Shown here in pieces: positions 5,588 to 30,785 of a stretch of 47,706 nucleotides of DNA. Origin of the DNA: a virus; the IMG/VR virus record IMGVR_UViG_3300036791_001288, positions 1 to 47,706 of that record, one strand, 5' to 3'. Numbering within the stretch: the stretch's first letter is position 1; each line of letters begins with the position of its first letter. Both the position numbers and the translations under genes were made by a program. Below the pieces are notes generated by a model. The model did no database searches and was not told where the DNA came from. It worked only from the letters and a program-made list of their open reading frames with translations.

Positions 5588-6756
5588 TGCCGAACCAGCA
5601 ATCAGTCATAAGCGGTCCGTTCATGGGGGTGGTATCCGACCTCACGTCTCCTCAAGGCCCCCCGAATGACTTCGACGACATCAGTAATTTCTTCGTCAGG
5701 AAGGGTGCTCTGCATACCCGCCCCAAGCTGAACCTGTTTAGCAACGACGTCGCCAACGTTCAGCGGGTATCCCAGATCGGATCGTTTCAGGACGCGAACT
5801 TCAACTGGCACACGTATAAGCTACTGGACACGCATAATAGTCCCACCGTGTTCAGCGCAGCGGCGTTCCTGAGGCCAGGAGGCCCCCCGTACAACTGGGA
5901 CTCGTTGACCATGCCGTCGTTGCCCGCTGGCAGCCTGGACATCGGCTTGCGGTACAGCCGGGTTACAGTAGGCAACATCGTCATCTTTTGCAACGGTGGT
6001 TACCCTGTCATGTACCTAGACGGCTCGAACACCGTACAGACCCTGGGTGATGTGCCCGGTACAGCTCGGTATGTCACAGAGAACGCCAATCACGTAATCA
6101 TCGCGTATACGCAGGAACCCGCGTTGGGGAGCCCAGGCGCTACGCTCTTTCCTAGGCGCGTCAGGTGGTCAGGGGTCAATAATCCGTTTGAGTGGGCGAC
6201 ACTCACGGACTTTACCGCGGGGTCCAACGATCTACTGGATGTACCCGATGGTATCACCGGACTCAATACTCTCGGGCGTAATACCTACATCTGGCGGTCC
6301 AACGGTGTGACGGTCATGTCTCCAACGGGTCAAGGCCTCACACCTTGGTTCTTTGAAAACTTTTCGATATCCGAGGATGGCATCGGTAGTATCTTTCCGT
6401 ACTGCTTAGCGACGTATGGAAACCAGTGTATGTTCGTCGCTCGGGATAACGTTTACATCTTTGACGGTACCTCGTTCACATCTGTAACCGGCATAAGCCA
6501 AACAGCGGCTAGTGGAGCGAATCGCAGGCGGATCTATAACGACTTGGCGCTGTCCACCACGAATCCTCCTCCGTGGGCAACGATCATTCCTAACTGGACC
6601 CTGGGCTTCGACATGCTCTGTTACGTCCTGTCAATACAACGTGTGGACGGCGTCAACATCACGTGGGTTTATACAATGGAAGATGGGCAATGGATGAGGT
6701 TCTCCTCGGCGCAAGGCATGCCCACGGCGATTAACAGCTTGGTGTCCATCTCATGA
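5587..6756 (+). CDS. Tail nozzle / tail-tube B-like beta-propeller protein
   Basis: This 389-residue protein contains RRVRWSGVNNPFEWATL (~200) and repeated beta blades with 'G..VY..DG' turns (DNVYIFDGTSFTSVTG at ~285). The 'RWS..NNPFEW' signature is shared by many podovirus nozzle proteins that form the distal tail channel. N-terminal residues 1-45 include SDLTSPQGPPNDFDDISNFFVRKG, typical of the family's start. It follows the adaptor-like gene with one shared base and overlaps the next gene by four bases. Confidence 0.7.
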   Translation: MPNQQSVISGPFMGVVSDLTSPQGPPNDFDDISNFFVRKGALHTRPKLNLFSNDVANVQRVSQIGSFQDANFNWHTYKLLDTHNSPTVFSAAAFLRPGGPPYNWDSLTMPSLPAGSLDIGLRYSRVTVGNIVIFCNGGYPVMYLDGSNTVQTLGDVPGTARYVTENANHVIIAYTQEPALGSPGATLFPRRVRWSGVNNPFEWATLTDFTAGSNDLLDVPDGITGLNTLGRNTYIWRSNGVTVMSPTGQGLTPWFFENFSISEDGIGSIFPYCLATYGNQCMFVARDNVYIFDGTSFTSVTGISQTAASGANRRRIYNDLALSTTNPPPWATIIPNWTLGFDMLCYVLSIQRVDGVNITWVYTMEDGQWMRFSSAQGMPTAINSLVSIS

Positions 6757-7886
6757 CGGCGACGATCATCGGCGGCCTGTACCAAACGAATATTATGGTA
6801 TTCGTAGGAGCTCCCTCTGTCGGCGCTCAGGAGACGGGTATCTGCTTGGTGCCGAATGCGACGGCGGCGCCGATTACGGTTACCAACGCATCGTTTGCTG
6901 GTGCGGGGGCCTTCAGTGTCGTATTTGGTCAGTTCCCCGTAACGGTTCCATCTGGCAGTTCCGTAGTGGTGCAAGTCGTCTACACAACTGCTATCGGTTT
7001 ACAAACTGGCGTTATGACGCTTGTCACCACTAGCGGTTCACTGCCTTCGGTCAACCTTACGGCCAACGTCGGTACCAATACGTCTGACATCTTCCCGAGT
7101 TTGATATTCCCAGGTGTCAAAGTTGGCCAGTCGTTGACGTTTCCTCTGATGGAAATCGTCAATCCCCTGACGACGTCCAATACAACGACGGCCCTCGGTA
7201 TGACTACGGGAACCGACTTCGCTATTACCGGCGCTCCCGCGATGCCGTTTACTCAGGTTGCTGGTGCTGTATCTGCTCCGTTCAACGTGGTCTTCACGCC
7301 TACGACTACCGGCTTGAGGTCAGACAGCATCTTCGTAACGAACGTTAACGGTACAGCAAGTAGGCCGATTACAGGTACCGGTACAGTCTTGCAGTCGTTC
7401 GATAGCTTGAACCCTCCAGCTCCCGCTGGTGCTATGCTGATGGCGTTTACAGGCATTCCGACGCCGACGATCTACTTTACCCAGCAGAATAACCTTCCCG
7501 CGCAGCTTGTCAACATAGATTGTGAAGAGGCGGCGCTGGCGACGAAGATTACGAACTTCGGCAGGCCCAATATGGAGAACCAGGTCCTGAGGATCAGAGG
7601 CCACTACAAAGACCTAGGTGTCGCCATCATGTTCATCACCGTGACCACCAGGAGACTGGACGTCACACCATCACAGGCGGCAAACGCAATCCAAACTCAG
7701 ACGAAGACGTTCAGCATCGGTACCGCGGTGGCCGACGAGTGGCCGAGACAATTCACAGTGGACTTTGACGTCACCGGTGAACTCACACAGATCTCGATCG
7801 GACGCAATGCAAACCAGGGGCCTGTGTGGCTCATAGACTACTGCCCAGAGTGGGTACCGAAGGGAGAGGTCTTGGAGGGTGTATGA
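6753..7886 (+). CDS. Virion protein with ASH/choice-of-anchor-D-like repeats
   Basis: This 377-residue protein has two tandem beta-sandwich repeats. The first (~25-105) has PITVTNASFAGAGAFSVVFG and VPSGSSVVVQVVYT; the second (~108-215) ends FNVVFTPTTTGLRSDSIFV. This is the pattern of ASH (ASPM-SPD-2-Hydin) or choice-of-anchor-D domains, common in secreted proteins of Acidobacteriota and related soil bacteria. The C-terminal ~150 residues form a different beta domain. Position between nozzle and fibre-like genes implies a tail appendage. The start overlaps the previous stop (ATGA). Confidence 0.65.
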   Translation: MTATIIGGLYQTNIMVFVGAPSVGAQETGICLVPNATAAPITVTNASFAGAGAFSVVFGQFPVTVPSGSSVVVQVVYTTAIGLQTGVMTLVTTSGSLPSVNLTANVGTNTSDIFPSLIFPGVKVGQSLTFPLMEIVNPLTTSNTTTALGMTTGTDFAITGAPAMPFTQVAGAVSAPFNVVFTPTTTGLRSDSIFVTNVNGTASRPITGTGTVLQSFDSLNPPAPAGAMLMAFTGIPTPTIYFTQQNNLPAQLVNIDCEEAALATKITNFGRPNMENQVLRIRGHYKDLGVAIMFITVTTRRLDVTPSQAANAIQTQTKTFSIGTAVADEWPRQFTVDFDVTGELTQISIGRNANQGPVWLIDYCPEWVPKGEVLEGV

Positions 7887-9419: not shown

Positions 9420-10997
9420 ATGGGTGGATTACTCTACAGTGCACCACAGTTTGGCGCAGGCGGCGGAGGGGCAGCTCCTGGTGGTGACAGCTCCACACCG
9501 GGACAACTTGGACAGTTGGCCTTGGCCGTCAAGTCCGCGAAGATGCAGGAAGCTCAGACGAACAGGCAGAACGCGCAGGAAAGTGTAAAAATGATTATGG
9601 GTAGTCCCATACTCACAATGATGACCGATCCAAAACAGTTAGAGAAGTTATTATTCGATGGCTACGGTCTCAAGTTCAACTCTGCTCCCCCCGCCAATCC
9701 AGCTCAGGCAGCTGCTGGAGCCGGACCAGCAGGTGCTTCCGATCCCGGACCGAATATTGGGGCTCCAGACTCCAATACGATGAAAATGTTGGCTGCCGGT
9801 ATGCAGGGGAACAAGTCCGGTGCCCAGGCCGGCTCTCCTGCGTCGCCTAACGCAGCTGGTAAAGCTCCTGGAGGAGGAGTCTCTCCCACTATCGGTCCTG
9901 GCGTAGTTGATCAACTTCACGGGCAAGCTAAAGCGGCGCTCGATCATACCTACGATAGATTAGCTCCTATCTACGCCGGTGCAATGGATCAGGCACAACT
10001 TGACTCGGTCAAGCGGAACTACGAACTTATGCTTGAGGAAAAAAAGACTCAGGCGCTTGGCGGTGACTACTACGCTATGGGTCAGATTGCTGCTGCATCT
10101 GGCCAACATGTGACCGCCGACGACATGCGGAGTCAGCTTTCGGTAGCTACCAACCTAACCCCGGAAATCACCAATAAAGCCTTGAGCTTTGCGCTTGGAA
10201 ACGAGTCTTCAGCCGACCAAGCTAAGAGATACGGGGACATGGTCACAACGTTAATCGGTAATAAGACATTTATGGATCGGGTGAAGGATCCTGCAGATGT
10301 CACCGAATACGCTCGAGAGCTTGTTTACACCGGTAAGGCTCCTCATATCGAAATGAAGCCACATTCGTTGGATGAATTAACGCGGATGTCGGAACGGGAG
10401 AAGTTTCTCGTGAATGACGTCGGCCTGCCCTATGACACAGCCCATACTTACGCTCAGAGTGAGATTGACGGTCTTTCTCCTACGCTGTCAATGCCTACGG
10501 GGTTCCAGACGATTGCTCAGCGAACTATGACGGGTAAAGAGCAAGCGACGGCAGCCCAAGTTGAGGCGAATAGGATTGAAGCGGTGAAGGCAGAGCAAGC
10601 TGGTGTCAAGATCCTTGGCGACTTGAAGAAGCAGGAAAACCAGGAACTGACCGACCGCCTAACTGGTATGATTGAGGCGGACAAGAACAAGCATCCGTAT
10701 CCTCCTGACATCAGACAAGGTATCCTGAATCAGGTAGCAGCGAAGACTGGGTTGACTCCCGTCGCCGTTACTCACTGGTATAACTATATTGGGTTGGGCG
10801 GTTCTGACTACGAGTATAAGAAAGTCAGTGACTCTGCAGCGGCGCAAGCGGGAGCAGGTACGTCCACCGCACCAAAGTCTGCGGAGGAAGGTGGTGCAAG
10901 CCTTCCGTATCAGATGTTGTACAGACTCATGCATAAGGAGCCTATGCCGATGCAGGATGTAGCGCCAACTACGCCGTCGGAGGAAGAGTCCCAGTGA
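9420..10997 (+). CDS. Internal virion (ejection) protein candidate B
   Basis: This 525-residue protein has a Gly-rich start, a low-complexity Pro/Ala/Gly region (~85-160) and then a long helical, charged region (~165-480). A GGAGG lies just upstream of the ATG. Together with the genes on each side (209 and 1754 aa) it forms a small, medium and giant series like the gp14-gp15-gp16 ejection proteins of T7-type phages. Homology to those proteins is not claimed. It overlaps the next start by four bases. Confidence 0.55.
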   Translation: MGGLLYSAPQFGAGGGGAAPGGDSSTPGQLGQLALAVKSAKMQEAQTNRQNAQESVKMIMGSPILTMMTDPKQLEKLLFDGYGLKFNSAPPANPAQAAAGAGPAGASDPGPNIGAPDSNTMKMLAAGMQGNKSGAQAGSPASPNAAGKAPGGGVSPTIGPGVVDQLHGQAKAALDHTYDRLAPIYAGAMDQAQLDSVKRNYELMLEEKKTQALGGDYYAMGQIAAASGQHVTADDMRSQLSVATNLTPEITNKALSFALGNESSADQAKRYGDMVTTLIGNKTFMDRVKDPADVTEYARELVYTGKAPHIEMKPHSLDELTRMSEREKFLVNDVGLPYDTAHTYAQSEIDGLSPTLSMPTGFQTIAQRTMTGKEQATAAQVEANRIEAVKAEQAGVKILGDLKKQENQELTDRLTGMIEADKNKHPYPPDIRQGILNQVAAKTGLTPVAVTHWYNYIGLGGSDYEYKKVSDSAAAQAGAGTSTAPKSAEEGGASLPYQMLYRLMHKEPMPMQDVAPTTPSEEESQ

Positions 10998-13900
10998 CGC
11001 CTCCGATAACTCCAACGCAAGCGTTACCACAGGCACCGCAGGTCAAGCCGTGGTCGGAGATCAGCAAGAACTTCGATCCACTGATGCCCAAGGAGACGTA
11101 TGATAATCTCCGTCTGCATTATTTCCAGAGTTTCGTCGTCCCTCGTATGGCACCTAACACTAACATCGCAGCTACATACGAGGAATTCTCGAAGCTCACC
11201 GAGCGGCCGAAGTTACTCTCCACCGGCCAGCGAGCTATGTTCCAGCTTGCAGTTGCTGGCGGTGCTGCGGCTGAAGCTGCTCTTGCTCCTATTGGAGGAG
11301 CACCCGGACAGAAGGGTACGGCGGCAGCCCGCGACTTGGCCTGGCTGCACCACTTCAACGAAGGCGTCTCGAAGATAGCGGGTAGGGAAGGCATGAGCGT
11401 CAGTGCGATGCAGGCGGCAGGGTCGTTTGCCGGACTCGGCGCTGACTTCGCTCTGTTGGAGGAGAGCCTCACCCCGATGATGGCTGGCATCGCGAAAGAG
11501 ATAACCACGAATGCCAAAGCGGTCGATGTACTGTCCAAGACCCTTCGAGGCGGCATGGCGTTTGGCACGTATGACGCAATGAGTGAGAAGTCGCCGAATC
11601 GGCTTCAGGCCGGCCTCAAGGGCTTCGCGATAGGAGGCGCATGGGACCTGGCTTTGAGCGTTCCTGGTTTTATGAAGTCGAAAGGCGTGGCTGGTTCGAA
11701 GGCGGCGGCAGACGACATCATAGCGAAGGCTAATGCTGGGGCACCGCCGTCACCCGCAGCAGATATCGCAGCGTCTGTCAAGGCACAGCATGACGCGGAG
11801 ATTGGCCGCATGGAACTCCGTCCCGAACACGGCTTGTGGACCTATGCCCTCGGTCAACGCGGCATGAGTGTCATAGTCAGAGATATCGCCGGTCAAAGTC
11901 AAGTAATCGAAGTCAGGCCGGGAAAGGTCTACGATGCCTATCGAGAGGTCCGAAGTCTCGTTGCCCAAGGAGGAAGTGTTGAGAACTATCGAGTCCACCC
12001 CGAAGACTCCCATATGGTCAACGAGTTCGTCAGAATCCAAACCCTTGCAGAGGAATCCAAATATCGGGGCACCGTTGTCCGAACACCAGAGGGCAAAGCA
12101 GAAGCGGTTGCACAGGTGTCGAAGTCTGAGGGTGTCCCGGCCGAAGCGGTAAGCAAGAACACGGTGGAAATCGCCAATGTTCCTGTTCAACATCCGATCA
12201 TGAAGAAGGCGGAGCCTGTTGCGAAGGCGGTTGCTGAAACGCCGATGACGCCGGCCCAGATCGACACAGCGTTGAAGGCCAAGGCGGGTATAAACGAGAC
12301 GGAGAGGAAGTTCCTGAACTATCACGTCAACAAGATCTGGGATCCCGCCGTGCCGTTCGAGGACAAGCGTTCGTCCGTGGTCATCGTCGCCAAGAACGCG
12401 CCGGAGTTACTGCCGCAGCAGTTCAAGAGTCAGCTGGTCAAGGGAGCCAAAGCTGTCAGGGCGGAGAGGAAGACGATAGCCAGAGTAAAGGGGAGGACGG
12501 TAGAAGGCAAACCGCTCGAAGTCGAAATCACAATGAGTCCGATCGAGGAGGCCAGGCAGGAGACGATCAGCCAGACGGAGAAGTTCGGTAAGAAGAAAGT
12601 CACACAGGAGACTGAAGCCGGAGCCAAGGCCAAAGAGACCAAGGCCAGAGGCAGAGGCAAGCGTGGTGGCGCCCGAGCTCTCCTGGAGGGACCCGAAGAC
12701 CCCAGCACGTTCAAAGCTCGTCGACCGCATGATATCGAAGTGCGGAAGAGCCCGTATGATGCCACGTGGGAAGTCCTCGAACGGCGTTCATCCAGCGATG
12801 AAGCTGCGTCGGTATCCGTCAAGCATCCGTATAACTTCAACAGTGAAGCGGAGGCAACGAAGTTCGCAGAGGACTTGAGGAGTAAGATCGAGAAGCCAAC
12901 GGAGTCCGACTTCGACATCCGCTCAATGATCCCGAGGTCGGAAGAGCGCGTGTATGAGACGTCTGGCGACGAAGGAGCTGTGACAGCGGAGGGTGAAACG
13001 TTCGGCAGCCTAAACGAAGCCATGGATGCCTCTGGCGACCATAAGTACGCTGTCAGCCCCGCCGGACGCAAAGACGTGGCAACACAACTCGCAGAGATCA
13101 GTCTGAAAGATCGCGTGATGGGGTCCATCGAAGACGTCGCCAAAGGTGACCTCCCGCAGATCGGAAAGGCACTGGCACAACGTGGATGGCAAGCTATCTT
13201 ACTCAAAGGTTACGAACCAGATAAAGTCGAGATTGTATACTTCCGACCGGAAGACCGTGCCGGTGTCATACCCTTGGTCAACTCCTACGACCAGTACATC
13301 TCGCAGCAGGCGGGGCGCTTTTTTGATTCTAATGGTCACCCTACTCGTACTCTGGGTGCTGTTGAACATGGTCGCCTGGGGGCAGCTTTTGGAATTCCAG
13401 CGGAGGATATTGCGAAATTCGATCCCAAGACGCATGGACGTGGAGTCAAGCCAGCTAGTGAAATACGCGTGAGGCCGAAGGGCCAACGGCTGGTCATGGG
13501 TCAGCAGGACATGAATGAGTTGTACCAGAACGCGAAGGGGCTTGCGGTTCCTTCAATGAACGAGCTGGCACAGTCCCTCGGTATCGACCTGCCGTTGTCC
13601 CTGCAGAACGGTGACCCGTTGATTATTCTGACGCCCGACGTCGGCAAGGAGACACTGTTCCATGAACGACTACATGTTAACGGAATGCATGCCGGGACAT
13701 ACGATAACTTTCCAGAACATATTGAGGAAGGCGACCGGAAGACCGCTCTTGAGCTGGGAGAGGGCCTCTCGAAGGACTTCGCGGGATACAAATTTCTGGG
13801 ACATCGAATCCTTGTTGAAGAAGCCTTCACTCATGCCGCCACCGCTCTCAGATATGGAAACGCTGACTATCTCGACCGTCTTGCTCAATACGATACAAGC

Positions 13901-16258
13901 GTGGCCCACGTTGTCAACTTCGTGTTTAATACAGCGAATAACCTACTCGAGAGAACGTTTGGAGCATCTGATACCGTTCCCGTTCGCATCTTCCAACGTA
14001 CCTTGTGGGATCTTATGCGTAGAGGTTCAGATGAGGTTGCTGAAGCAGTGGAGCAAGGTAGTCGGGCAGGAGACAGCGGAATCGCTTCTTGGTGGGATCC
14101 TAAGACCAATAGCTGGGTCCTCAAAGCCGGCCCTGGCAGGGAGTTAGTATTCGAGGACATTAATAGTCTGTGGGATCACCTCCTGGACGACGACAAGAAC
14201 TTTATGGCTCCGTCGGCGTCGTTGCGGGCGGAAATGGGTGGTGTCCGCGGCAACATGGCTCCGATCGGTCACGAGCCCGCCAACAGGCCGTTGCCGGTTC
14301 CAGACGCCCCACCGGACAAGTACAAAGTCGGCCTGAGTGCGATGTCTGCATTGTGGCGTCCGACGATGCCCTGGGTGGCAACAGTCCACGAGCAGCTCAA
14401 TACGTTTTTCCGCAAGACGGGGAACTACCTACCTCTGTACGAACGTGTGAAGGGCGTCGATGAGCAGTACCGCCAAGGCGAACGTTGGCTCCAGCAAACG
14501 CTGGAGGAGGCAGGTGATCTTGTCCGGCCCTTTGGCGGCCGGAAGATGCGGTCGACGTTCGACTACCTGACCCTGAGCGAAGCGGAGAGGACCCCCGCAG
14601 CTCAAGCGAAGTACGGATTGACCCCCGCAGACGCCTTGCAGGCGAACAAAGTCTGGCAGTGGATGCTGCAGTTCAGGCAGGACACCGGCATCGACATCCC
14701 GCGATACATGAACGAATACCACCCGAAGCTCAGGTCGTTTGGATGGGCACCGGAGCGGGCGTTTGGACCCATCACGGCGCCGCAGTCGGCTTCATATTGG
14801 GATCGATTGATCCGACACGATGGCAAATGGGAGCCGCAGGACGCTCACCTTGGGCGTTTCATGAACCTAGTGGTCAGGGAAGGCATGGAGAAGAAATTCA
14901 CCGGAAAGGCCCTCGATGAACTGGAGAAGATTACAGAAAAGAAGACACCTGATGGACAATACATCATCCCTAATACTGTTAGGTGGCCTCTTACTAATTA
15001 CTCTCGTTATATGCGAGGTATTCCTGATACTAGTCAGCAAGTCATCAATAAAGTAATGTCGGACGTCTTCGACACGATTAACGAAAAAGCCAAGGCGTTG
15101 AACCAGAAGCTTCCGGCGAACGCCCAAATTCCGATGATCACGACGCCGCCAAAGACGGTTATGAACCGTTTCATGCTCGCGTCGTATGTGATGGGCCTCG
15201 GCCTTCGGCCTGCCATCGCCGTCAGGGACTCGATGTGGTCGTTCGTCAGTGCCTTGACCGTCCTCGGACCCGTACGCTTCGGCAGGGCTTTTTCATCGTT
15301 CATGATGTCTCCGTCGGCGTCCTTGGACTTCGCTGACCAGATGGGGGCGATGCTACGGAAGAACAACGTAGGAGAATTCTATGGAGACCTCACAGCGGAA
15401 ACCCCTCCCACAGGCCCCGGCTGGATGGACCGCGTCACTAAGTGGTCGAACGCTCTTCTGGCACCGTCGCGTTGGGGGCATAATTTTGGTCGTGCGCTCA
15501 TGTTCCATGGAGAATTCCACGACGCTGTTGAAAGCATTGCGGCTTATCGAGCAGGACGCATTAGCGTTGACGACTTGCTTGAGAACTCTACAATGTGGTT
15601 CATGGATCGACCGGCTCAGTCTAACCTGCTCCGACTCGTCAGTGACGCTCACATTCCGGTTGAAGACGTTGCGACGAAGATCGGACTTGAGGCGGTTGAT
15701 CTCACCCAGTGGCCTTACAGACGTGGAACGCAGCCAGCCCTTCTTCGTTATGGCGCTGGCAGGATCTTTGGACAGTATGGTGTCTGGCCGGCGAACTACG
15801 CCGATTTCCTGTATCGTATTGGACGGAAGTGGACGGAGAAACCAGCACTCGCCGCCCGAACGAGCGCGATGTGGGTCGCGGTGAATTATGCCGCCAGTCA
15901 CCTGATGGAACAGGGTCTGGGTGCGGATACATCAAGGTGGTTCTGGACGTCGCCTGCTGGCTTCGCCGGGTCGCCTCACGCTGACTTCGTCCACGCTGTG
16001 ATGGTGGCGCCTGAGGATACCGATGAGGGACACCAAGCTCGTAAGACGATCCTGGAGTATCCGCTGAACTTCATCCCGGCTCTCGGCGAGATGCGCTCGG
16101 TGATGAAAGGTATCGAGGAAGGGGGTGGTGAGCTGAACTGGAACAGTACACTGCGCGCGATGGGGTTCAAGCCCATGGCAGATGTCAATCAAGATCAAGA
16201 TTGGCAGGATTGGGTGAAGACCCAGATGGGGTTTGAAAACATGAGGAGGAAGCCATAA
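10994..16258 (+). CDS. Giant internal virion protein with HExxH metallopeptidase-like motif
   Basis: This 1754-residue protein is the largest in the genome. The N-terminal ~300 residues are Ala-rich and helical, with membrane-like stretches (LAVAGGAAAEAALAPIG). Residues ~380-620 are Lys/Glu-rich. HERLH at 890-894 matches the zinc-metallopeptidase motif HExxH, and an EE pair at ~942-943 in a helix (LVEEAFTHAAT) could supply the third ligand. The C-terminal ~600 residues (from ~1120) are helical and Trp-rich. Size, order and the last position in the virion operon fit a DNA-ejection protein of the T7 gp16 type. No lytic transglycosylase motif was found. The start overlaps the previous stop by four bases. 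Confidence 0.65.
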   Translation: MTPPITPTQALPQAPQVKPWSEISKNFDPLMPKETYDNLRLHYFQSFVVPRMAPNTNIAATYEEFSKLTERPKLLSTGQRAMFQLAVAGGAAAEAALAPIGGAPGQKGTAAARDLAWLHHFNEGVSKIAGREGMSVSAMQAAGSFAGLGADFALLEESLTPMMAGIAKEITTNAKAVDVLSKTLRGGMAFGTYDAMSEKSPNRLQAGLKGFAIGGAWDLALSVPGFMKSKGVAGSKAAADDIIAKANAGAPPSPAADIAASVKAQHDAEIGRMELRPEHGLWTYALGQRGMSVIVRDIAGQSQVIEVRPGKVYDAYREVRSLVAQGGSVENYRVHPEDSHMVNEFVRIQTLAEESKYRGTVVRTPEGKAEAVAQVSKSEGVPAEAVSKNTVEIANVPVQHPIMKKAEPVAKAVAETPMTPAQIDTALKAKAGINETERKFLNYHVNKIWDPAVPFEDKRSSVVIVAKNAPELLPQQFKSQLVKGAKAVRAERKTIARVKGRTVEGKPLEVEITMSPIEEARQETISQTEKFGKKKVTQETEAGAKAKETKARGRGKRGGARALLEGPEDPSTFKARRPHDIEVRKSPYDATWEVLERRSSSDEAASVSVKHPYNFNSEAEATKFAEDLRSKIEKPTESDFDIRSMIPRSEERVYETSGDEGAVTAEGETFGSLNEAMDASGDHKYAVSPAGRKDVATQLAEISLKDRVMGSIEDVAKGDLPQIGKALAQRGWQAILLKGYEPDKVEIVYFRPEDRAGVIPLVNSYDQYISQQAGRFFDSNGHPTRTLGAVEHGRLGAAFGIPAEDIAKFDPKTHGRGVKPASEIRVRPKGQRLVMGQQDMNELYQNAKGLAVPSMNELAQSLGIDLPLSLQNGDPLIILTPDVGKETLFHERLHVNGMHAGTYDNFPEHIEEGDRKTALELGEGLSKDFAGYKFLGHRILVEEAFTHAATALRYGNADYLDRLAQYDTSVAHVVNFVFNTANNLLERTFGASDTVPVRIFQRTLWDLMRRGSDEVAEAVEQGSRAGDSGIASWWDPKTNSWVLKAGPGRELVFEDINSLWDHLLDDDKNFMAPSASLRAEMGGVRGNMAPIGHEPANRPLPVPDAPPDKYKVGLSAMSALWRPTMPWVATVHEQLNTFFRKTGNYLPLYERVKGVDEQYRQGERWLQQTLEEAGDLVRPFGGRKMRSTFDYLTLSEAERTPAAQAKYGLTPADALQANKVWQWMLQFRQDTGIDIPRYMNEYHPKLRSFGWAPERAFGPITAPQSASYWDRLIRHDGKWEPQDAHLGRFMNLVVREGMEKKFTGKALDELEKITEKKTPDGQYIIPNTVRWPLTNYSRYMRGIPDTSQQVINKVMSDVFDTINEKAKALNQKLPANAQIPMITTPPKTVMNRFMLASYVMGLGLRPAIAVRDSMWSFVSALTVLGPVRFGRAFSSFMMSPSASLDFADQMGAMLRKNNVGEFYGDLTAETPPTGPGWMDRVTKWSNALLAPSRWGHNFGRALMFHGEFHDAVESIAAYRAGRISVDDLLENSTMWFMDRPAQSNLLRLVSDAHIPVEDVATKIGLEAVDLTQWPYRRGTQPALLRYGAGRIFGQYGVWPANYADFLYRIGRKWTEKPALAARTSAMWVAVNYAASHLMEQGLGADTSRWFWTSPAGFAGSPHADFVHAVMVAPEDTDEGHQARKTILEYPLNFIPALGEMRSVMKGIEEGGGELNWNSTLRAMGFKPMADVNQDQDWQDWVKTQMGFENMRRKP

Positions 16259-24657: not shown

Positions 24658-24734
24658 TCATCCCCCACATACCAGTACGGCAAGTCCGGGTCCTGCAGGT
24701 ACAACTCCCAGTACAGAATCATCGTAAGCATCAT
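24654..24734 (-). CDS. 26-residue aromatic microprotein
   Basis: AAGGAGG lies just upstream of ATG 24734, which overlaps the folE stop (TAATG). The product, starting MMLTMILYWELYLQDPDLPY, is hydrophobic and Trp/Tyr-rich. Its TGA overlaps the next gene's ATG. The strong ribosome site and double coupling argue for translation; it may be only a leader that keeps ribosomes moving into the next gene. Confidence 0.5.
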   Translation of the reverse strand: MMLTMILYWELYLQDPDLPYWYVGDE

Positions 24735-25291
24735 TACCTCCTTGTCAAGTCAAAGAACCTCTTTTCAAGATCACGGTCGGTGGCAAAGTCCCCTGCGAGT
24801 TTGTACGTGATGAAATCTGCATCAGAACGGACTCCCCGAATTCTTGTGCAGTCATGTCTGCCGGCAACGAGGCAAGCAGCTCCACGGACACCAGGACAGA
24901 TCTCGAGTAGAACACGTAGGCAGTCTTTGGTAAACTTCTCCTGAAGTACAGGGCCAGTATTGCATTCATCAAGCACACGAGCAAGTTTGCTAAGACCCAG
25001 AACATGCCCGTTCGGAATATACGCGATGGATACCCGAAGGTCGACAGGTAAGAGATGGTGAGGACACATTGTGTAAAGAGTATGACCGCGCAGAAGAATA
25101 AAGTCGTTGAAGTCCTCTGGAAACGTAGCCCACTCTCTGTCTTTGGGTCCAAACAGCTCAGCGTACATCCGTGCAACGCGTTCGGGGGTGTCTCGGTAGT
25201 TACGGTCTTGTAGTTCACAGTCCAGGCCTTTCAGTATAAGCTCAACGCCAGCTTCAATCTTTCCAAGGTCCAAGATGAACCTCTCTTTCAT
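24734..25291 (-). CDS. folE: GTP cyclohydrolase I
   Basis: This 185-residue protein catalyses GTP to 7,8-dihydroneopterin triphosphate, the first step to preQ0. Signatures: RDTPERVARMY (33-43), MCPHHLLP with Cys76 and His79 as zinc ligands, IPNGHVLGLSKLARVLDE (92-109) and HDCTRIRGV with Cys148 as the third ligand. Met at 25291 (MKERFILDLGKIEAG) is chosen because it begins the family's first helix; longer in-frame starts run over the upstream gene. It overlaps that gene by 38 bases. The canonical CEHH is CPHH here. Confidence 0.92.
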   Translation of the reverse strand: MKERFILDLGKIEAGVELILKGLDCELQDRNYRDTPERVARMYAELFGPKDREWATFPEDFNDFILLRGHTLYTMCPHHLLPVDLRVSIAYIPNGHVLGLSKLARVLDECNTGPVLQEKFTKDCLRVLLEICPGVRGAACLVAGRHDCTRIRGVRSDADFITYKLAGDFATDRDLEKRFFDLTRR

Positions 25292-25559
25292 AGATAAGAT
25301 ACAGCCATGTGATAGCTTTAACCAGTATTCTTCTTCGCCCGGCACTGTACGGATCCAGGCGTTGGAACTCACCAAGTTTAAGGCGAGTTTCACCGAGAGC
25401 ATGTGAAAAATCATTTGATGGGTTAGTTTCGTAGAAGCCTCCGTCAACGCCGTAGTGTTTCTTCTTTTCCCGAAGGAGGTCGCTGACATCAGCGAGCATC
25501 TTGACCAGGATTTGGCCTCGTAGTTCGTCGCTAATTGGGGGTGATGATTCTGTATTCAT
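25254..25559 (-). CDS. All-helical hypothetical protein, possibly nucleotide-metabolism related
   Basis: This 101-residue protein starts at ATG 25559, nine bases after AGGAGG; an upstream in-frame GTG would place that site inside the gene. DLLREKKKHYGVDGGFYET followed by SHALGETRLKLGEFQRLDP resembles the 'K...YG...K..R...L' pattern of DUF1599/nucleotide-modification-associated proteins. The match is weak. The position just before folE would suit such a role. Confidence 0.5.
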   Translation of the reverse strand: MNTESSPPISDELRGQILVKMLADVSDLLREKKKHYGVDGGFYETNPSNDFSHALGETRLKLGEFQRLDPYSAGRRRILVKAITWLYLIYEREVHLGPWKD

Positions 25560-25869
25560 CCTTTTCGTCCTCCTCACTTGGGCCTCTCGGCGCCATCATG
25601 TCTTGCTTGAACTTTTCCCAGAACCGTAAAGATGCTTCTCGATATCCAGGTCCGCTAACGGCTTCATTGTAATGGCGGCGGATAACCTCGCCGGTGTCGT
25701 TGTTATGTGCCACGATATCGTAACACAGCTCGGGCCGGAAGTGCTGACCATATGCGATAGAGTACTTGCCAAGCGTGCTAACTGCCTCGTCAATCGGGGT
25801 GAACTCCTCTGGATATCCCCGTCGAAGCGGTATACGCTTGACTCCGTGCGGACGTTTCTTCTCATTCAT
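25531..25869 (-). CDS. Hypothetical protein, que gene cluster
   Basis: This 112-residue protein starts at ATG 25869 with GGAGGG five bases upstream. It is charged, with HGVKRIPLRRGYPEEFTPID near the start and an acidic tail. It overlaps the next gene by 29 bases. No domain is recognised. Confidence 0.55.
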   Translation of the reverse strand: MNEKKRPHGVKRIPLRRGYPEEFTPIDEAVSTLGKYSIAYGQHFRPELCYDIVAHNNDTGEVIRRHYNEAVSGPGYREASLRFWEKFKQDMMAPRGPSEEDEKDEYRIITPN

Positions 25870-26047
25870 CTTCCCTCCGGTGGAATGGGTGAAGGGTGCC
25901 ATCAGCCTGCAGGAAGAGTTTCTTGAGGTTATTGGACTTTTCGTATACGGAGACCTCTTCGCCACAGGTCTTGCAGGTGAAGCGGCTTTCGTACTTGTAA
26001 CCGTGTTCGTTCAGGAGGGTTTCAGTCCATACGCTTGGATATATCAT
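25862..26047 (-). CDS. Small CxxC protein
   Basis: This 61-residue protein has one CKTC pair (~25-28) within FTCKTCGEEVSVYEKSN, half of a zinc ribbon; two His near the C-terminus could complete a site. It overlaps the end of the queE-like gene by one base and the next start by eight bases. Unknown. Confidence 0.5.
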   Translation of the reverse strand: MIYPSVWTETLLNEHGYKYESRFTCKTCGEEVSVYEKSNNLKKLFLQADGTLHPFHRREDE

Positions 26048-26721
26048 CAGCGTACCCCCAGGAATTTGTGTAGTTGGACGCTCAGGCGCCAGTGTGGAAA
26101 GTGCTCCAGAATAGCCTGGGCCAGTTTCATGTTGACGGGGTCCACCGCCAGCTCGTCGTTGATCGGCTGGACGAAGACGTTGGGGTGATTGAGGATCTCA
26201 TCCGGGATATCTTTGAGGAGGAAGTTCCGGTCGATCAGGAGTTTGATTTCGTCGGCGACGTCGATCATCTCCCGCAGACAGCCGTGCTTGGGGCTGACGG
26301 TGATCCACAGTCCGATGGGTTCGTATAGGATGGTGCCGGATGTCTCGATGTGGATGCGTTTGTCGAAGTCAAAGGCTAGCTTACAGAGTTGGTTGAACGC
26401 AGGGGTGTCTTTGTGCAGGAGGGGTTCGCCTCCCGTGAGGCAAATGTGGTCCTCCCACGTTTCCTCAATGAGGCTCACCACTTCCGTTGCTGTGCCGTGG
26501 AAGAAGTCGGTGTCGCACCAGAAGTTCCTTCCGTCGATCGTGGTGCACTGCGCAGCTCTGGCTCCGGTCTTGAGGATCGGAAAAGCCTGATCAGACGTCG
26601 GGAGCTGACGCCCAACATTACACCCAGCAGTACGAATAAAATGCATGGGAGTGCCGACATGTAGTCCCTCTCCTTGTATACTGTGAAAGTGTTCAGCTAC
26701 GGGTAGTGTGGTCAGCATCAT
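26047..26721 (-). CDS. queE: 7-carboxy-7-deazaguanine synthase (radical SAM)
   Basis: This 224-residue protein has the QueE opening AEHFHSIQGEGLHVGTPMHFIRTAGCN, where the Cys is residue 34. The cluster motif is stretched: Cys34-X24-Cys59-X9-Cys69 ending FWCDTDFF, instead of CX3CX2C. ICLTGGEPLLHKD (the SAM-binding GGEP) and HIETSGT follow. It converts CPH4 to CDG using SAM and magnesium. It overlaps the end of queD by 29 bases. The start may be ATG 26721 or 26718. Confidence 0.88.
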   Translation of the reverse strand: MMLTTLPVAEHFHSIQGEGLHVGTPMHFIRTAGCNVGRQLPTSDQAFPILKTGARAAQCTTIDGRNFWCDTDFFHGTATEVVSLIEETWEDHICLTGGEPLLHKDTPAFNQLCKLAFDFDKRIHIETSGTILYEPIGLWITVSPKHGCLREMIDVADEIKLLIDRNFLLKDIPDEILNHPNVFVQPINDELAVDPVNMKLAQAILEHFPHWRLSVQLHKFLGVR

Positions 26722-27139
26722 ACTCCAATCTTAGTAGTTCCGCGGAGGACGTGCAGGTCTCCTCCAGCCTGAGTTTGTACCACTTTATGAGTTGAAGTTG
26801 ACCGCCGATCGCATGGAGCAGGTTTTCGCTCGTGGGGTAGAAGTTCGGAGGTAACCACGGTACCATCCAGTTGTCATGCGCGTGACGGTCTTCCATCTCG
26901 TGTACGTCGGTGAGGATATGCCCCCAGGTACCAAGATGCCTATGGTCCAAGCTATCGATGATAGGTTTGACGAGTTCGCTGATCTCGGCGAAGTCCCGGA
27001 CGAAGCCGGTTTCCGAATTGATGGCGCCGCTGATGTGTACGTGCAGCTGCCAGCTGTGTCCATGCAGTCGGCTGCATTTACCGGGGTGTCTGGGCAGCAC
27101 GTGGCTGGCTTCAAACCTGAATGATTTTGTCAGTATCAT
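26693..27139 (-). CDS. queD: 6-carboxytetrahydropterin synthase
   Basis: This 148-residue protein converts dihydroneopterin triphosphate to CPH4. It has FEASHVLPRHPGKCSRLHGHSW, with zinc ligands His13, His26 and His28 and catalytic Cys22, then GFVRDFAEI (Asp49) and SLDHRHLG (Asp65, His66), and ends with PTSENLL. The ATG at 27139 overlaps the stop of the small membrane protein upstream. Length is slightly above the bacterial norm of ~120-140. Confidence 0.92.
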   Translation of the reverse strand: MILTKSFRFEASHVLPRHPGKCSRLHGHSWQLHVHISGAINSETGFVRDFAEISELVKPIIDSLDHRHLGTWGHILTDVHEMEDRHAHDNWMVPWLPPNFYPTSENLLHAIGGQLQLIKWYKLRLEETCTSSAELLRLEYDADHTTRS

Positions 27140-27228
27140 CGTTGGCGTCTCTTTCTCCGGCGGTCCAGCGAGGACTCCACGCAGATAGCGAAGAGTCCCC
27201 ACAGGAGCGGGATTAGGATTGCGATCAT
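27136..27228 (-). CDS. 30-residue single-pass membrane microprotein
   Basis: The ATG overlaps the acb2-like stop (AAATGA) and its TGA overlaps the queD ATG. The product, starting MIAILIPLLWGLFAICVESS, is one hydrophobic helix of ~18 residues followed by a very basic tail (DRRRKRRQR). This is a clear positive-inside membrane topology. Function unknown. Confidence 0.55.
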   Translation of the reverse strand: MIAILIPLLWGLFAICVESSLDRRRKRRQR

Positions 27229-27443
27229 TTGCCTTCGCAGGCGATAGCTGCGTTGGCGGTCATGCAGGCTTCGCGGATGAGTCTGACAGCTGCCGAGACG
27301 TCTGCGCCCTCGGGAGCGTCCTCGACGATGGTCATGGCAAGTTGATGTCCAGCATCTCGAATGCGTTGGTATTTCGGGAGCTGGTCAGGAGTCGGAGAAT
27401 GATACGTGAACCAGTGTTGCAATTGCTCGTCTGTAATTTTCAC
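27225..27443 (-). CDS. acb2: Acb2-like cyclic oligonucleotide sponge (anti-CBASS)
   Basis: This 72-residue protein has HWFTYHSPTPDQLPKYQRIRDAG, then LAMTIVEDAPEGADVSAA and RLIREACMTANAAIA. These match the Acb2 (Vs.4) helical hairpin: F-x-Y-H-x-P...Q...Y..IR, then LRE..M.ANA.IA. Acb2 assembles as a hexamer that sequesters cyclic di- and trinucleotide signals made by CBASS and related defences. It is coupled to the gene on each side by four-base overlaps. Confidence 0.85.
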   Translation of the reverse strand: MKITDEQLQHWFTYHSPTPDQLPKYQRIRDAGHQLAMTIVEDAPEGADVSAAVRLIREACMTANAAIACEGK

Positions 27444-27847
27444 TTTGCCATTGCTCCCTTCGGCCCTTCCTGCAGCGATTTGATGTTGAACGGCGCGATC
27501 TTGCCGCGTTTTTCACCCTGGTACGTCTCATGGTCGATCTTGACAAAGAGTTCCCCGTCGTTGATCCGTTCGGGGTCGTGACCTTCGGGACTGGGTTTGT
27601 AGCCGACGGCCTCATAGTACGCCTTCAGCTTGGCCAGTGCGTGAGGCTGAAGCGACGCCATGTCAAAGAGGACCCGGCCGACGTGAGGCTCGTTCTGAAC
27701 CTTCATCCAGATGCACCACATCGGTTCGCCGGAGTTCTCCGACATGCGCTCTTCTCCCTTCGTGATCCTGACGTGGTACCAGCCTTCTGCGGGTAGGTCC
27801 CCCCACTTCTCAACCTTGCTCATGTCCTGCGCGTATTGTGGACTCAC
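27440..27847 (-). CDS. DUF669-like protein, possible ssDNA-binding/recombination accessory
   Basis: This 135-residue protein starts at GTG 27847 with AAAGGG seven bases upstream. GEPMWCIWMKVQNEPHVGRVLFDMASLQPHALAKLKAYYEAVG and LFVKIDHETYQGEKRGKIAPFN follow the DUF669 pattern (a mixed beta protein seen beside phage Sak4 and RecT-type recombinases). It sits one small gene away from the RecA-like ATPase. Binding to single-stranded DNA is inferred from that association. Confidence 0.6.
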   Translation of the reverse strand: MSPQYAQDMSKVEKWGDLPAEGWYHVRITKGEERMSENSGEPMWCIWMKVQNEPHVGRVLFDMASLQPHALAKLKAYYEAVGYKPSPEGHDPERINDGELFVKIDHETYQGEKRGKIAPFNIKSLQEGPKGAMAK

Positions 27848-27851
27848 TTGG

Positions 27852-28040
27852 TCACCCTTTCCTGTTTTGAATTATACTACGGACTGCGTTGTTCAGTGCG
27901 TCTTTCACTGCCGGTTCAAACTGCGACGCGGCAATATCGTATTGAACGCCGTGGACCTCGCGGACGTTGCTGTCGGCCTGCACCAGCAACTTCAGCTTGG
28001 GCCATTGGTCGATGACTGTTACCGTGAACGACTTGTTCAT
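27852..28040 (-). CDS. Small hypothetical protein in recombination module
   Basis: This 62-residue protein is beta then alpha (SFTVTVIDQWPKLKLLVQAD, then VKDALNNAVRSIIQN). The ATG overlaps the stop of the RecA-like ATPase gene (ATGA). No family is recognised. Confidence 0.5.
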   Translation of the reverse strand: MNKSFTVTVIDQWPKLKLLVQADSNVREVHGVQYDIAASQFEPAVKDALNNAVRSIIQNRKG

Positions 28041-28861
28041 AGTGCCGCTACCCTCTCTAGGTCGGTGATAAACGGGGTGTAGTCATCCGACTCCTCACTG
28101 TTGTATTGAGTTACCGTGATGCCTTCGGGAAACTGCCCGTCCTTGCCTTTTAAGACCTTTGAACCGTGGTCGATATCAAATATGTGCATTGGACGAGGAA
28201 ACGATAGCATACTGCGAGTTTTACCCACTCCTGGGACTCCATAGAGCATCCAGATCCACGGAGCTCCCCAGACCAGTTGTGGATTCTTCTCCACAAGACT
28301 CCGGAGTTCGGAATAGTTAGCAGGGAGGATTCCAGCTGAATTAACAAGGGTACCTCCGAATCGGTCCTTGGCCACCCAGTTGTCCCCAGCGGTACCGTCG
28401 CCGAGAGGTTCGGGCTTGCAGATCCAAGAAGGCGTTCCATTGACAAGTCGAACTCGGAAGACATTGTCGCATACCCCCATCATTTCGGTTGGTGCGGTGG
28501 AGCCAGGGATGTTCGGCCAGCCCATCACGGCAATCGGCTCTGCAGGCGTTTTGCCCTTCGTCGTCATGACCCCGCCTCTGGCGTAGATCTTTTCAACTTG
28601 CTCGTGGACTAGCATCACGACTTCTATGCCTCCCTTATCCCGGTAGTCTTTGAATCGTCGGCATACCATGTTCATGCGTTCGGTGCAGCCGGGATAGTTG
28701 TTCATGGCACGGATCTGCTCGGTCAAGCTACCGTTACTGGCAATAGTAGCGTGCTTCTTCATGTCGAAGGAGAAGGCCAAGCGGCTCCACTCGTGCGCGC
28801 TGTCGATTACCATGGTCTTAGGTCTGGTGGTTGGATACTGATTAACGTGTTCAGCTGGCAT
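28037..28861 (-). CDS. RecA/Sak4-like ATPase with circularly permuted motif order
   Basis: This 274-residue protein starts at ATG 28861 (TGATG with the queC stop). Residues 15-25 KTMVIDSAHEW look like Walker B, 80-88 EVVMLVHEQ like the following strand with its sensor His, and VAKDRFGG (~180) like the C-terminal end of Sak4/AAA_24 ATPases. Only then comes WMLYGVPGVGKTRSM, with Walker A at 208-215, and MHIFDIDHGSKVLKG, which in relatives are at the N-terminus. The protein ends SDDYTPFITDLERVAAL, the segment that normally leads into Walker B. Thus the C-terminal third belongs in front of residue 1. Recombinase or helicase-loader function is inferred from the family and from neighbouring DUF669-like and Cas4-like genes. 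Confidence 0.75.
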   Translation of the reverse strand: MPAEHVNQYPTTRPKTMVIDSAHEWSRLAFSFDMKKHATIASNGSLTEQIRAMNNYPGCTERMNMVCRRFKDYRDKGGIEVVMLVHEQVEKIYARGGVMTTKGKTPAEPIAVMGWPNIPGSTAPTEMMGVCDNVFRVRLVNGTPSWICKPEPLGDGTAGDNWVAKDRFGGTLVNSAGILPANYSELRSLVEKNPQLVWGAPWIWMLYGVPGVGKTRSMLSFPRPMHIFDIDHGSKVLKGKDGQFPEGITVTQYNSEESDDYTPFITDLERVAAL

Positions 28862-29565
28862 CACTGTGCCTGCGCATACGTCAGGGGGTCCGAGACTTTG
28901 TTTTCGACGAAGGCGTCGAGACGAATTCGACAACTGTCGCATCGTCCGCAAGCCAGCTCGCTTCCTTCGTAGCACGACCACGTAAGGTGAAGGGGAGCTT
29001 TGAGCTCCAGCGCAAGAGCCACCACACTAGCTTTAGACGAATTGATGATGGGAGCGTGCACTTGTATAGAACGGTTTGATTCGTATCCACGTCGAGTAGC
29101 ATAATGCGCAAGATGGTTCCACGCGGATACAAAGACAGGACGACAGTCCGGGTATCCGGAGAAGTCCACCGCGTTGAATCCTGTGATGATGAAGTCAAGG
29201 TCGAGTGCCTCCGCGTAGGATTGGGCGATTGCCAACAGGATCGTATTCCGCCCGGGAACATACGATCGGGGTACCCTGGCCGTCATCGCACTGAGTGCTC
29301 GATCACGAGGTAGAACCTCGGCAGGATTAAGAAGTGCTGATGCCGTGCGTATACCGTCGAGGAGCTGCGGCAGATGAAGTACCGTGTGGTCGAGATGATA
29401 GAAGGCCGACACGTCCATGGCAGCCTTAACCTCCCGATCGTGACGTTGACCGTACAGAACGGAAAGCGCATGGGTGACCTCGTATCCGTCGCTCTTTGCC
29501 ACGGCAGTGGCGGTGCAGCTGTCGAGACCTCCACTAAGTAGCACTATACTTTTTCGACTTTGCAT
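28861..29565 (-). CDS. queC: 7-cyano-7-deazaguanine (preQ0) synthase
   Basis: This 234-residue protein has the PP-loop SGGLDS at 11-16 and LYGQRHDREVKAA (~38-50), the QueC substrate signature. A C-terminal zinc site follows: Cys198, Cys206, Cys209 and Cys212 (CYEGSELACGRCDSC). It turns CDG into preQ0 with two ATP and ammonia; some phage relatives may stop at the amide ADG. ATG 29565 directly precedes the P-loop strand (MQSRKSIVLL); the gene overlaps the upstream one by 32 bases. Confidence 0.92.
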   Translation of the reverse strand: MQSRKSIVLLSGGLDSCTATAVAKSDGYEVTHALSVLYGQRHDREVKAAMDVSAFYHLDHTVLHLPQLLDGIRTASALLNPAEVLPRDRALSAMTARVPRSYVPGRNTILLAIAQSYAEALDLDFIITGFNAVDFSGYPDCRPVFVSAWNHLAHYATRRGYESNRSIQVHAPIINSSKASVVALALELKAPLHLTWSCYEGSELACGRCDSCRIRLDAFVENKVSDPLTYAQAQ

Positions 29566-29776
29566 ATCTCTTGGCCCTTTCGTAGTCTCCCGCGAACGGG
29601 ATGTAAGCGTTCGTGACAGGTGAGATGTTACTCTGGTCAACATTCTTGAGAACACCGACGTGCTGGTGGCATCGCTGGCATTTGATACAGGTCCAGATTT
29701 CATTCTGCATGATGATGACGGTCCTGGAACGGTCGATTTCCAATTCACCGCCGCACTCACTGTGAATCATCCACAT
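29534..29776 (-). CDS. Small zinc-ribbon-like protein
   Basis: This 80-residue protein has a Cys near residue 8 (ECGGE) and CIKCQRC (~30-36), followed by a basic Tyr-rich tail. The Cys arrangement suits a zinc ribbon. It overlaps the nuclease gene by 20 bases and queC by 32. Unknown function. Confidence 0.55.
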   Translation of the reverse strand: MWMIHSECGGELEIDRSRTVIIMQNEIWTCIKCQRCHQHVGVLKNVDQSNISPVTNAYIPFAGDYERAKRYAKSKKYSAT

Positions 29777-30785
29777 CGGTTATTGGTACCTCTCCTTCTG
29801 CTGGTTTTGGCGCTGGCAGGCCCAGATGCTTGTAGTACTCCAGCTCTACGTAGTCGAGTTCCCGAGTGCGGAACTCTCCTGGTTGGACAACTCCATTCCG
29901 CTTACAGACATCCCAGAAGTCACACCGACGATTGTAAGACATACAGGATTGTGTGTTTCGGTAAAACTCCCGGAAAGGATCTTCTGCACCATCAGCTCCT
30001 TCGAAATCCCGAGCGATTCTCGCCATTTCATCTTGAAACTCGCCGAGGTCATCCTCACTTCGAAGGTACGGTTCCCGCTCCGGACTGTAATCGAAATCGA
30101 AAGGGTTTTGGTTCTTGGCTGGCTTGGGGCTTTTTTCCATGAGGACTCCATTGATTGGTAGACCTGTTGCCTTTCTGACCCCCCAGACGTAGCAGGAGAT
30201 CTGTAGTGCGAGGTACCACTGATCCCACCAGATTTCTTGTTTCATGCCGGAGGTCTTACGCTCGAGGATCCAAATAAGGCTGTTCCACTGGAGGACTCCG
30301 TCGGTCCTGCCGCGGACTTTGTGGTTCATCACGCATCGGAAGTCTCGGCAGTCCTCTGCCAGATGACCTCCAGTACGCTTGTCGTCTGGATAAAGTATTC
30401 GATGTACGTACAGACAGTGGTGTTCTGTATGAGGCAGATCGACACAAAATTCCACTTCGGGTTTGAGCACGGTCCAGGTATCCTGTTCAGACTGATTAGC
30501 CTGGGCGTTGAGCATTCGCTTGACCAGCTCGATGTTCCGCTCATGGATCGGTTTTTCTTCGGGAAGGATGAAAGTCTTTGCCAATTCCTCTCGGTAGAGG
30601 GTCTCGGCAGCGGCAAGGGCCTTGACACGCCCACCGCCTGAATTGAGCACGGCGCACCCCTTGTGATAAGCCGACCCAAGCGTTAAAGGTTGGGTAAGGC
30701 TCCTCGATGTCAACCGTTGGTTGTACCACCACTGGAGGCGTCTGCACTTCAGGAAGAAATTCGCCCGTGAGGCGTTGATGATCAC
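29757..30785 (-). CDS. Cas4/RecB-like PD-(D/E)XK nuclease with Fe-S cysteines
   Basis: This 342-residue protein starts at GTG 30785 coupled to the previous stop. Cys14 is in FFLKCRRLQWWY. GSAYHKG (~37-43) supplies the conserved His. The nuclease core is GRTDGVLQWNSLIWILERKTSG (Asp, then ExK). QISCYVWGVRKATG follows, and then CMSYNRRCDFWDVC supplies three more Cys near residue 295. The first and last Cys set is the Fe-S arrangement of Cas4/AddB nucleases. It likely makes 3' single strands for the neighbouring recombinase-like ATPase. Confidence 0.8.
   Translation of the reverse strand: MIINASRANFFLKCRRLQWWYNQRLTSRSLTQPLTLGSAYHKGCAVLNSGGGRVKALAAAETLYREELAKTFILPEEKPIHERNIELVKRMLNAQANQSEQDTWTVLKPEVEFCVDLPHTEHHCLYVHRILYPDDKRTGGHLAEDCRDFRCVMNHKVRGRTDGVLQWNSLIWILERKTSGMKQEIWWDQWYLALQISCYVWGVRKATGLPINGVLMEKSPKPAKNQNPFDFDYSPEREPYLRSEDDLGEFQDEMARIARDFEGADGAEDPFREFYRNTQSCMSYNRRCDFWDVCKRNGVVQPGEFRTRELDYVELEYYKHLGLPAPKPAEGEVPITDVDDSQ

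Follow-up and report, generated by a model that had tools for sequence, protein, structure and literature searches.

The gene at the centre of this analysis lies on the minus strand of an uncultivated viral contig, IMG/VR record IMGVR_UViG_3300036791_001288, all 47,706 nt of which are referred to here as the window. It is very likely (probability approximately 0.92, in the absence of any biochemistry) that this gene encodes a Sak4-type RecA-core recombinase, or single-strand annealing protein, that has undergone circular permutation in nature. The order of the halves is reversed within a continuous open reading frame, the reversed order is conserved in 19 contigs, and the permuted proteins form a single clade. 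The frame is uninterrupted and yields a single 274 aa product; its ATG overlaps the end of QueC, and its stop codon lies 4 nt inside the next ORF. Coordinates are collected in Table 1.

Table 1. Features of the permuted gene, its surroundings and its predicted structural elements. Positions refer to the window unless a locus is named; E, strand; H, helix.
Feature	Residues	Position	Strand	Basis
Sak4-like RecA-core ATPase gene, very likely circularly permuted		28037..28861	-	274 aa plus stop
Walker B half (C-terminal two thirds of canonical Sak4, now first)	1-195	28277..28861	-	PF13479 and hhalign
P-loop half (canonical N-terminal third, now last)	196-274	28040..28276	-	PF13479 and hhalign
Walker B strand KTMVIDSAHEW, at new N-terminus	15-25	28787..28819	-	
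Walker A/P-loop GVPGVGKT, near new C-terminus	208-215	28217..28240	-	
Join of old C-terminal helix to old first strand, NPQLVWGAPWI	193-203	28253..28285	-	
K165-D-R167, likely counterpart of 52A Sak4 K-x-R, mid-protein	165-167	28361..28369	-	Position and motif, inferred
QueC, directly upstream, stop overlapping ATPase start		28861..29760	-	PF06508, E 4.1e-62
Small conserved ORF, directly downstream, 4-nt overlap with ATPase end		27852..28040	-	
DUF669-like/SSB-like partner gene		27440..27847	-	PF05037, E 4.5e-4; phrog_3724, E 1.1e-10
PD-(D/E)XK/Cas4-like exonuclease of the recombination module		29757..30785	-	phrog_1218 (exonuclease), E 1.8e-14
LAGLIDADG ORFs, both sides of permuted gene		L002:5589-6023 and 6753-6986		
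LAGLIDADG ORF		L008:4134-4592		
LAGLIDADG ORF		L014:3744-4190		
LAGLIDADG ORF		L003:7535-8011		
LAGLIDADG ORF		L252:4406-4813		
Canonical E28-33, H39-43, E50-54	E203-208, H214-218, E225-229			Predicted pairing
Canonical H60-63, E69-73, H77-89	H233-237, E248-252, H258-273			Predicted pairing
Canonical E95-99 (Walker B), H101-115	E16-20, H22-33			Predicted pairing
Canonical H126-149; E152-162	H44-52 with H57-77; E80-86			Predicted pairing
Canonical E176-179, H183-192, E195-207	E110-112, H125-130, E133-140			Predicted pairing
Canonical E215-223, E245-247, H251-258	E143-147, E178-180, H183-192			Predicted pairing

Both nucleotide-binding motifs are present, Walker A (GxxxxGKT) as GVPGVGKT at residues 208–215 and Walker B (hhhhD) as MVID at residues 17–20. 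In the family alignment T16, D20, S21 and E24 of the Walker B region are invariant, as are K214 and T215. The native 274 aa protein matches PF13479 (AAA_24) at 46.7 bits against a cut-off of 27 and the Sak4-like family phrog_124 with an E value of 9.9e-16, each as two stretches in reversed order. The N-terminal piece alone (residues 15–168) covers PF13479 positions 66–195, and the C-terminal piece (residues 202–265) covers positions 3–69; likewise, positions 110–238 of phrog_124 are matched by the N-terminal two thirds alone. When the halves are swapped in silico, each profile returns a single stretch, residues 4–244 to positions 3–195 of the 195 in PF13479 (E 4.4e-13) and residues 3–248 to positions 43–238 of phrog_124 (E 7.1e-18). 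With hhalign, ATPase residues 11–84 align with canonical 94–166; comparison of the family alignments in native order yields a pair of reversed hits (E 2.4e-10 and 6.4e-10), which merge into a single hit in swapped order (E 7.5e-20).

In a rotation scan against a canonical HMM, full-length permuted proteins gain clearly in best-domain score once rotated (24.0 to 39.0 bits for the window protein, 39.7 to 86.2 bits for its relative L013), whereas canonical proteins score best unrotated or at most 1.4 bits from it. The break in the HMM, judged on permuted members with both halves complete, falls consistently between positions ~66–81 and 92–95. A local-HMM test matched both halves in reversed order across the permuted family, the best of 1,080 composition shuffles reaching 6.8 bits. 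The Walker B half of the window protein is weak in this test (10.7 bits, E 0.012), and stronger support comes from its relatives. The best families for the window ATPase are Sak4/AAA_24 and not a GTPase class, and no NKxD-type G4 motif of GTPases was seen on reading its sequence. Complete permuted members span 247–274 aa, all of which is assigned to the core; the additional DNA-binding domain found in RecA/Rad51 is absent.

AlphaFold2, given the native order with 12 relatives, predicts one confident domain (pLDDT 78.2, pTM 0.80), with low confidence at residues 89–122. The model of a canonical Sak4, L132 (pLDDT 87.8, pTM 0.84), aligns best with the solved phage 52A Sak4, 8rc5 (Z 22.7, 208 residues aligned, rmsd 2.5), followed by RAD51 and RecA. 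After rotation, the predicted helices and strands of the permuted model pair one-to-one with those of the L132 model; a short strand (92–94) and a helix (170–173) have no listed canonical partner. The cut site follows helix C and precedes the Walker B strand. Foldseek and VIA-align searches of the permuted model against the PDB returned only noise (best VIA Z 7.0, to a cis-prenyltransferase). The lack of a reliable match from sequential aligners is expected for a permutation because such aligners are order-dependent. BFVD A0A516LUR7, the sole significant viral structure hit (E 5.8e-5, 217 columns, TM 0.4), may represent either a further permuted protein or only a partial alignment. That the permuted protein adopts the same RecA-type core fold is thus a model prediction, resting on the element map and sequence profiles without a superposition.

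A first-pass annotation, made from sequence alone, had placed the Walker B-like segment ahead of the P-loop, the reverse of the normal order, and this held as stated. Its further claims, that the C-terminus is the piece which normally precedes Walker B (helix 258–273 is the counterpart of the canonical helix preceding Walker B), that the VAKDRFGG region which normally ends the fold lies mid-protein and that the new termini fall in the loop before Walker B, also held. The suggestion that the permuted gene product still folds is supported by the native AlphaFold2 model and the element map, not by superposition. An end-to-end alignment of the swapped form with PF13479, set beforehand as a check, was obtained, and close homologues with the same order were found. 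An unbroken alignment of the native order to known ATPases, or an N-terminal part of different fold, would have refuted the idea; alignment to canonical Sak4 breaks, and the same RecA-type fold is predicted to continue through the N-terminal part.

Identity to the window protein is ~40–67 % across the 19 distinct IMG/VR contigs, a total that counts the window and takes in L016 (truncated), L002 (early frame break) and L032 (in-frame stop). Two relatives with the same permuted order emerged from an initial scan of viral contigs. The DUF669-like neighbour, a bait by which gene order was not selected for, recovered 13 loci in viral contigs, and the Walker B half comes first wherever the ATPase gene is present (L015 is cut off); a bait search of viral contigs with the window exonuclease gave no hits. 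Neighbours on both sides are common to the contigs with the permuted gene. Among 84 canonical proteins collected, near-identical copies included, the P-loop lies in the N-terminal part in all 83 with a recognisable P-loop (L215 gave no motif hit). Synonymous change is far above non-synonymous change in both halves of the L009/L012 pair (dN 0.018, dS 1.085); purifying selection acts on both halves of the permuted gene. Two members carry lesions. The in-frame stop in L032 (L032:6388-6390) falls at a conserved Trp position and could be a sequencing error, decay or recoding, and the early break in L002 (L002:6000-6070; LTFS, then TAA, then the MKKHA frame) is a one-base difference that could be an error or a frameshift.

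Whole records searched with AAA_24 and phrog_124 contained the permuted gene only, with no second, canonical copy, and these searches, the only ones bearing on the point, gave no sign of a leftover duplicate next to the gene. A scan of contigs from 84,980 species genomes found no relative. Sequence searches of named phages gave no relative in native order, and the swapped form matched only canonical Sak4 at ~23–34 % identity; a PDB sequence search with either form returned nothing relevant.

The surrounding genes resemble those of canonical Sak4, exonuclease and SSB-like neighbours of the same kind being found beside it in named phages. The PF05037 match of the DUF669-like gene is just under the family cut-off, with weak matches to SSB families phrog_7778 and phrog_378, and the L014 relative of the window exonuclease matches PDDEXK_1. 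No family hit was obtained for the small downstream ORF in Pfam and PHROG profile searches. The best reading, which is inferred, is that the locus is a conventional Sak4 recombination module in which the recombinase is permuted.

Several other features of the window were observed. One region (24734-29760, minus strand) encodes QueC, QueD (PTPS), GTP cyclohydrolase and a radical SAM protein resembling QueE; this queuosine-type gene set raises the possibility of 7-deazaguanine DNA modification, inferred from gene content. A 72 aa ORF (27225-27443, minus strand) matches the Acb2/Tad1 hairpin domain (PF24729, E 2.6e-13) and might be an anti-CBASS/anti-Thoeris nucleotide sponge. The 1754 aa ORF at 10994-16258 (plus strand) has no PHROG match. 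Additionally, ORFs resembling LAGLIDADG homing endonucleases occur repeatedly near the recombination and queuosine genes of several loci. A homing-endonuclease origin was considered as a general cause of the permutation and is not supported, such ORFs lying near the gene in few members only.

The permuted proteins form one clade with support of 100/100 (93/96 once L252 is added). Their nearest relatives, L251 and L252 (IMGVR_UViG_3300012189_000006 and IMGVR_UViG_3300012096_000027), are unpermuted, matching PF13479 in one stretch (residues 16–213 to positions 4–194, E 3.9e-20), and lie in an exonuclease–Sak4–DUF669–QueD operon that matches that of the permuted genes. L252 groups with the permuted clade at 100/100, subject to a long-branch warning given the long branches between permuted and canonical proteins. 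Its loop at the cut site is long, ~16 residues by eye, which is compatible with, and no more than suggestive of, a permissive site. Several terminase relatives at 26–33 % identity carry a canonical Sak4; in the closer terminase group the permuted form is found wherever the gene is present. As the nearest relative is unpermuted in a matching operon, the simplest history is one derived event, inferred to be a single permutation in place. Permutations usually arise by tandem duplication, after which the outer halves are trimmed. In such a history, the Sak4 gene would have undergone tandem duplication (or an equivalent rearrangement) in place, once, after which a new start arose before Walker B and the outer halves were lost; no duplication intermediate was found.

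In the proposed architecture, the chain would begin with the Walker B strand, run to the old C-terminal helix and a short linker, and end with the P-loop strand and P-loop, followed by two further strands and helices. A single-domain ATPase core would thereby be rebuilt, with Walker A and Walker B contributed by opposite chain ends. The 52A Sak4 forms Rad51-like filaments; the published figure of its ATP site depicts Lys41, Thr42 and Tyr216 from one protomer alongside Lys229, Arg231 and His232 from its neighbour (PMC11846896). The canonical profile, aligned to 8rc5, places a TKIR motif at Lys229/Arg231; among the permuted proteins R167 is invariant and K165 nearly so. K165-x-R167 is probably the counterpart of this neighbour-protomer K-x-R, on position and motif only. 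DNA binding and annealing by HK620 Sak4 are ATP-dependent (PMC5928155). The permuted protein most likely still acts as a Sak4, with ATP-dependent single-stranded DNA (ssDNA) binding and annealing; this function is inferred, again without biochemistry. It would bind ATP and ssDNA and anneal or pair strands in partnership with the products of the neighbouring exonuclease and SSB-like DUF669 genes, as for canonical Sak4.

Of the alternatives, the one that survives best, though unlikely, is that the protein is permuted but catalytically degenerate, its fold being kept for DNA or protein binding with ATP hydrolysis dispensable. The last P-loop glycine is missing in L008, L009, L012 and L032 (GxxxxKKT or GxxxxEKT; GIKKT, GMEKT), where ATP turnover may be weak or lost, and the Walker A mutation K30A of PA73 Sak4 cost only 1.7-fold in recombineering in an early test (PMC5928155). 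However, the invariant K214 and T215, a Walker A that most members, the window protein included, retain intact, and the ATP requirement of HK620 Sak4 speak against degeneracy.

A two-domain protein, with an unrelated N-terminal fold and a separate small P-loop domain, is very unlikely. The absence of a clear fold from Foldseek and VIA-align in sequential order could be taken in its favour. Against it, the N-terminal two thirds alone match most of both Sak4 profiles, the P-loop piece is the first part of the fold only, and the protein is predicted as one unit (pTM 0.80) whose elements are the canonical ones in rotated order. Splicing, whereby a permuted intron or inverted split intein would restore or circularize a canonical product, is also very unlikely. 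LAGLIDADG ORFs directly flank the gene on both sides in L002 and lie upstream in L008, but the few-base overlaps of the window ATPase with QueC and the downstream ORF leave no space in which intron halves could fit, inspection by eye shows no intein-like ends, and most members lack a nearby LAGLIDADG ORF. An assembly or binning artefact, conceivable for a single uncultivated viral contig, is all but excluded by the same order in 19 distinct contigs of this divergence with shared flanking genes on both sides.

Natural permutation thus remains the preferred reading, and the window protein is a Sak4 by homology that fails only the motif-order feature of the family, namely Walker A before Walker B with a single-stretch profile match. 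With canonical Sak4 (phrog_124; PF13479; HK620, PA73 and 52A, PDB 8rc5) it shares the whole-core profile, Walker A and B, the likely K-x-R for the neighbour's ATP, the predicted secondary structure and the operon context of exonuclease and SSB/DUF669-like genes. In contrast to canonical Sak4, its chain is rotated, starting at Walker B and ending after the P-loop third, and a short linker replaces the N-terminal extension. L251 and L252, nearest in sequence and alike in exonuclease–Sak4–DUF669–QueD order, differ in their canonical motif order and in a longer loop where the permuted proteins have their termini; L252 also lacks QueC between exonuclease and Sak4. Natural permutations of P-loop NTPases are known among GTPases. 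The cpRAS GTPases (G3-G4-G5-G1-G2; PMC2430557) are a precedent with an equivalent cut, immediately ahead of the Walker B (G3) strand, yet there the permuted unit is a RAS-like GTPase domain within larger proteins rather than a RecA core, and no shared function is known. The YRG/YlqF/YqeH GTPases (G4-G5-G1-G2-G3) are likewise circularly permuted, with another cut, in another class, and act in ribosome assembly. No permuted Sak4 or RecA-core recombinase was described in the literature searched, coverage of which is incomplete.

A bolder reading, no more than possible, is that the permutation is functional rather than neutral and went to fixation throughout a phage lineage. With the termini relocated to the loop preceding Walker B, and with loss of the canonical N-terminal segment, a possible aid to protomer joining, the result could be altered polymerization on ssDNA, altered control or evasion of Sak4-targeting defences. 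If true, this would be the first RecA-core recombinase with a natural circular permutation, in a family in which both ends of the core serve in protomer contacts and among P-loop NTPases, where natural permutation is rare. Profile matches in two reversed stretches can reveal genuine permutations to which sequential structure aligners are blind. The permuted gene and its unpermuted relative in a matching operon form a before-and-after pair for how a permutation arises, one that bears on the importance of folding order and on which termini are needed for filament formation.
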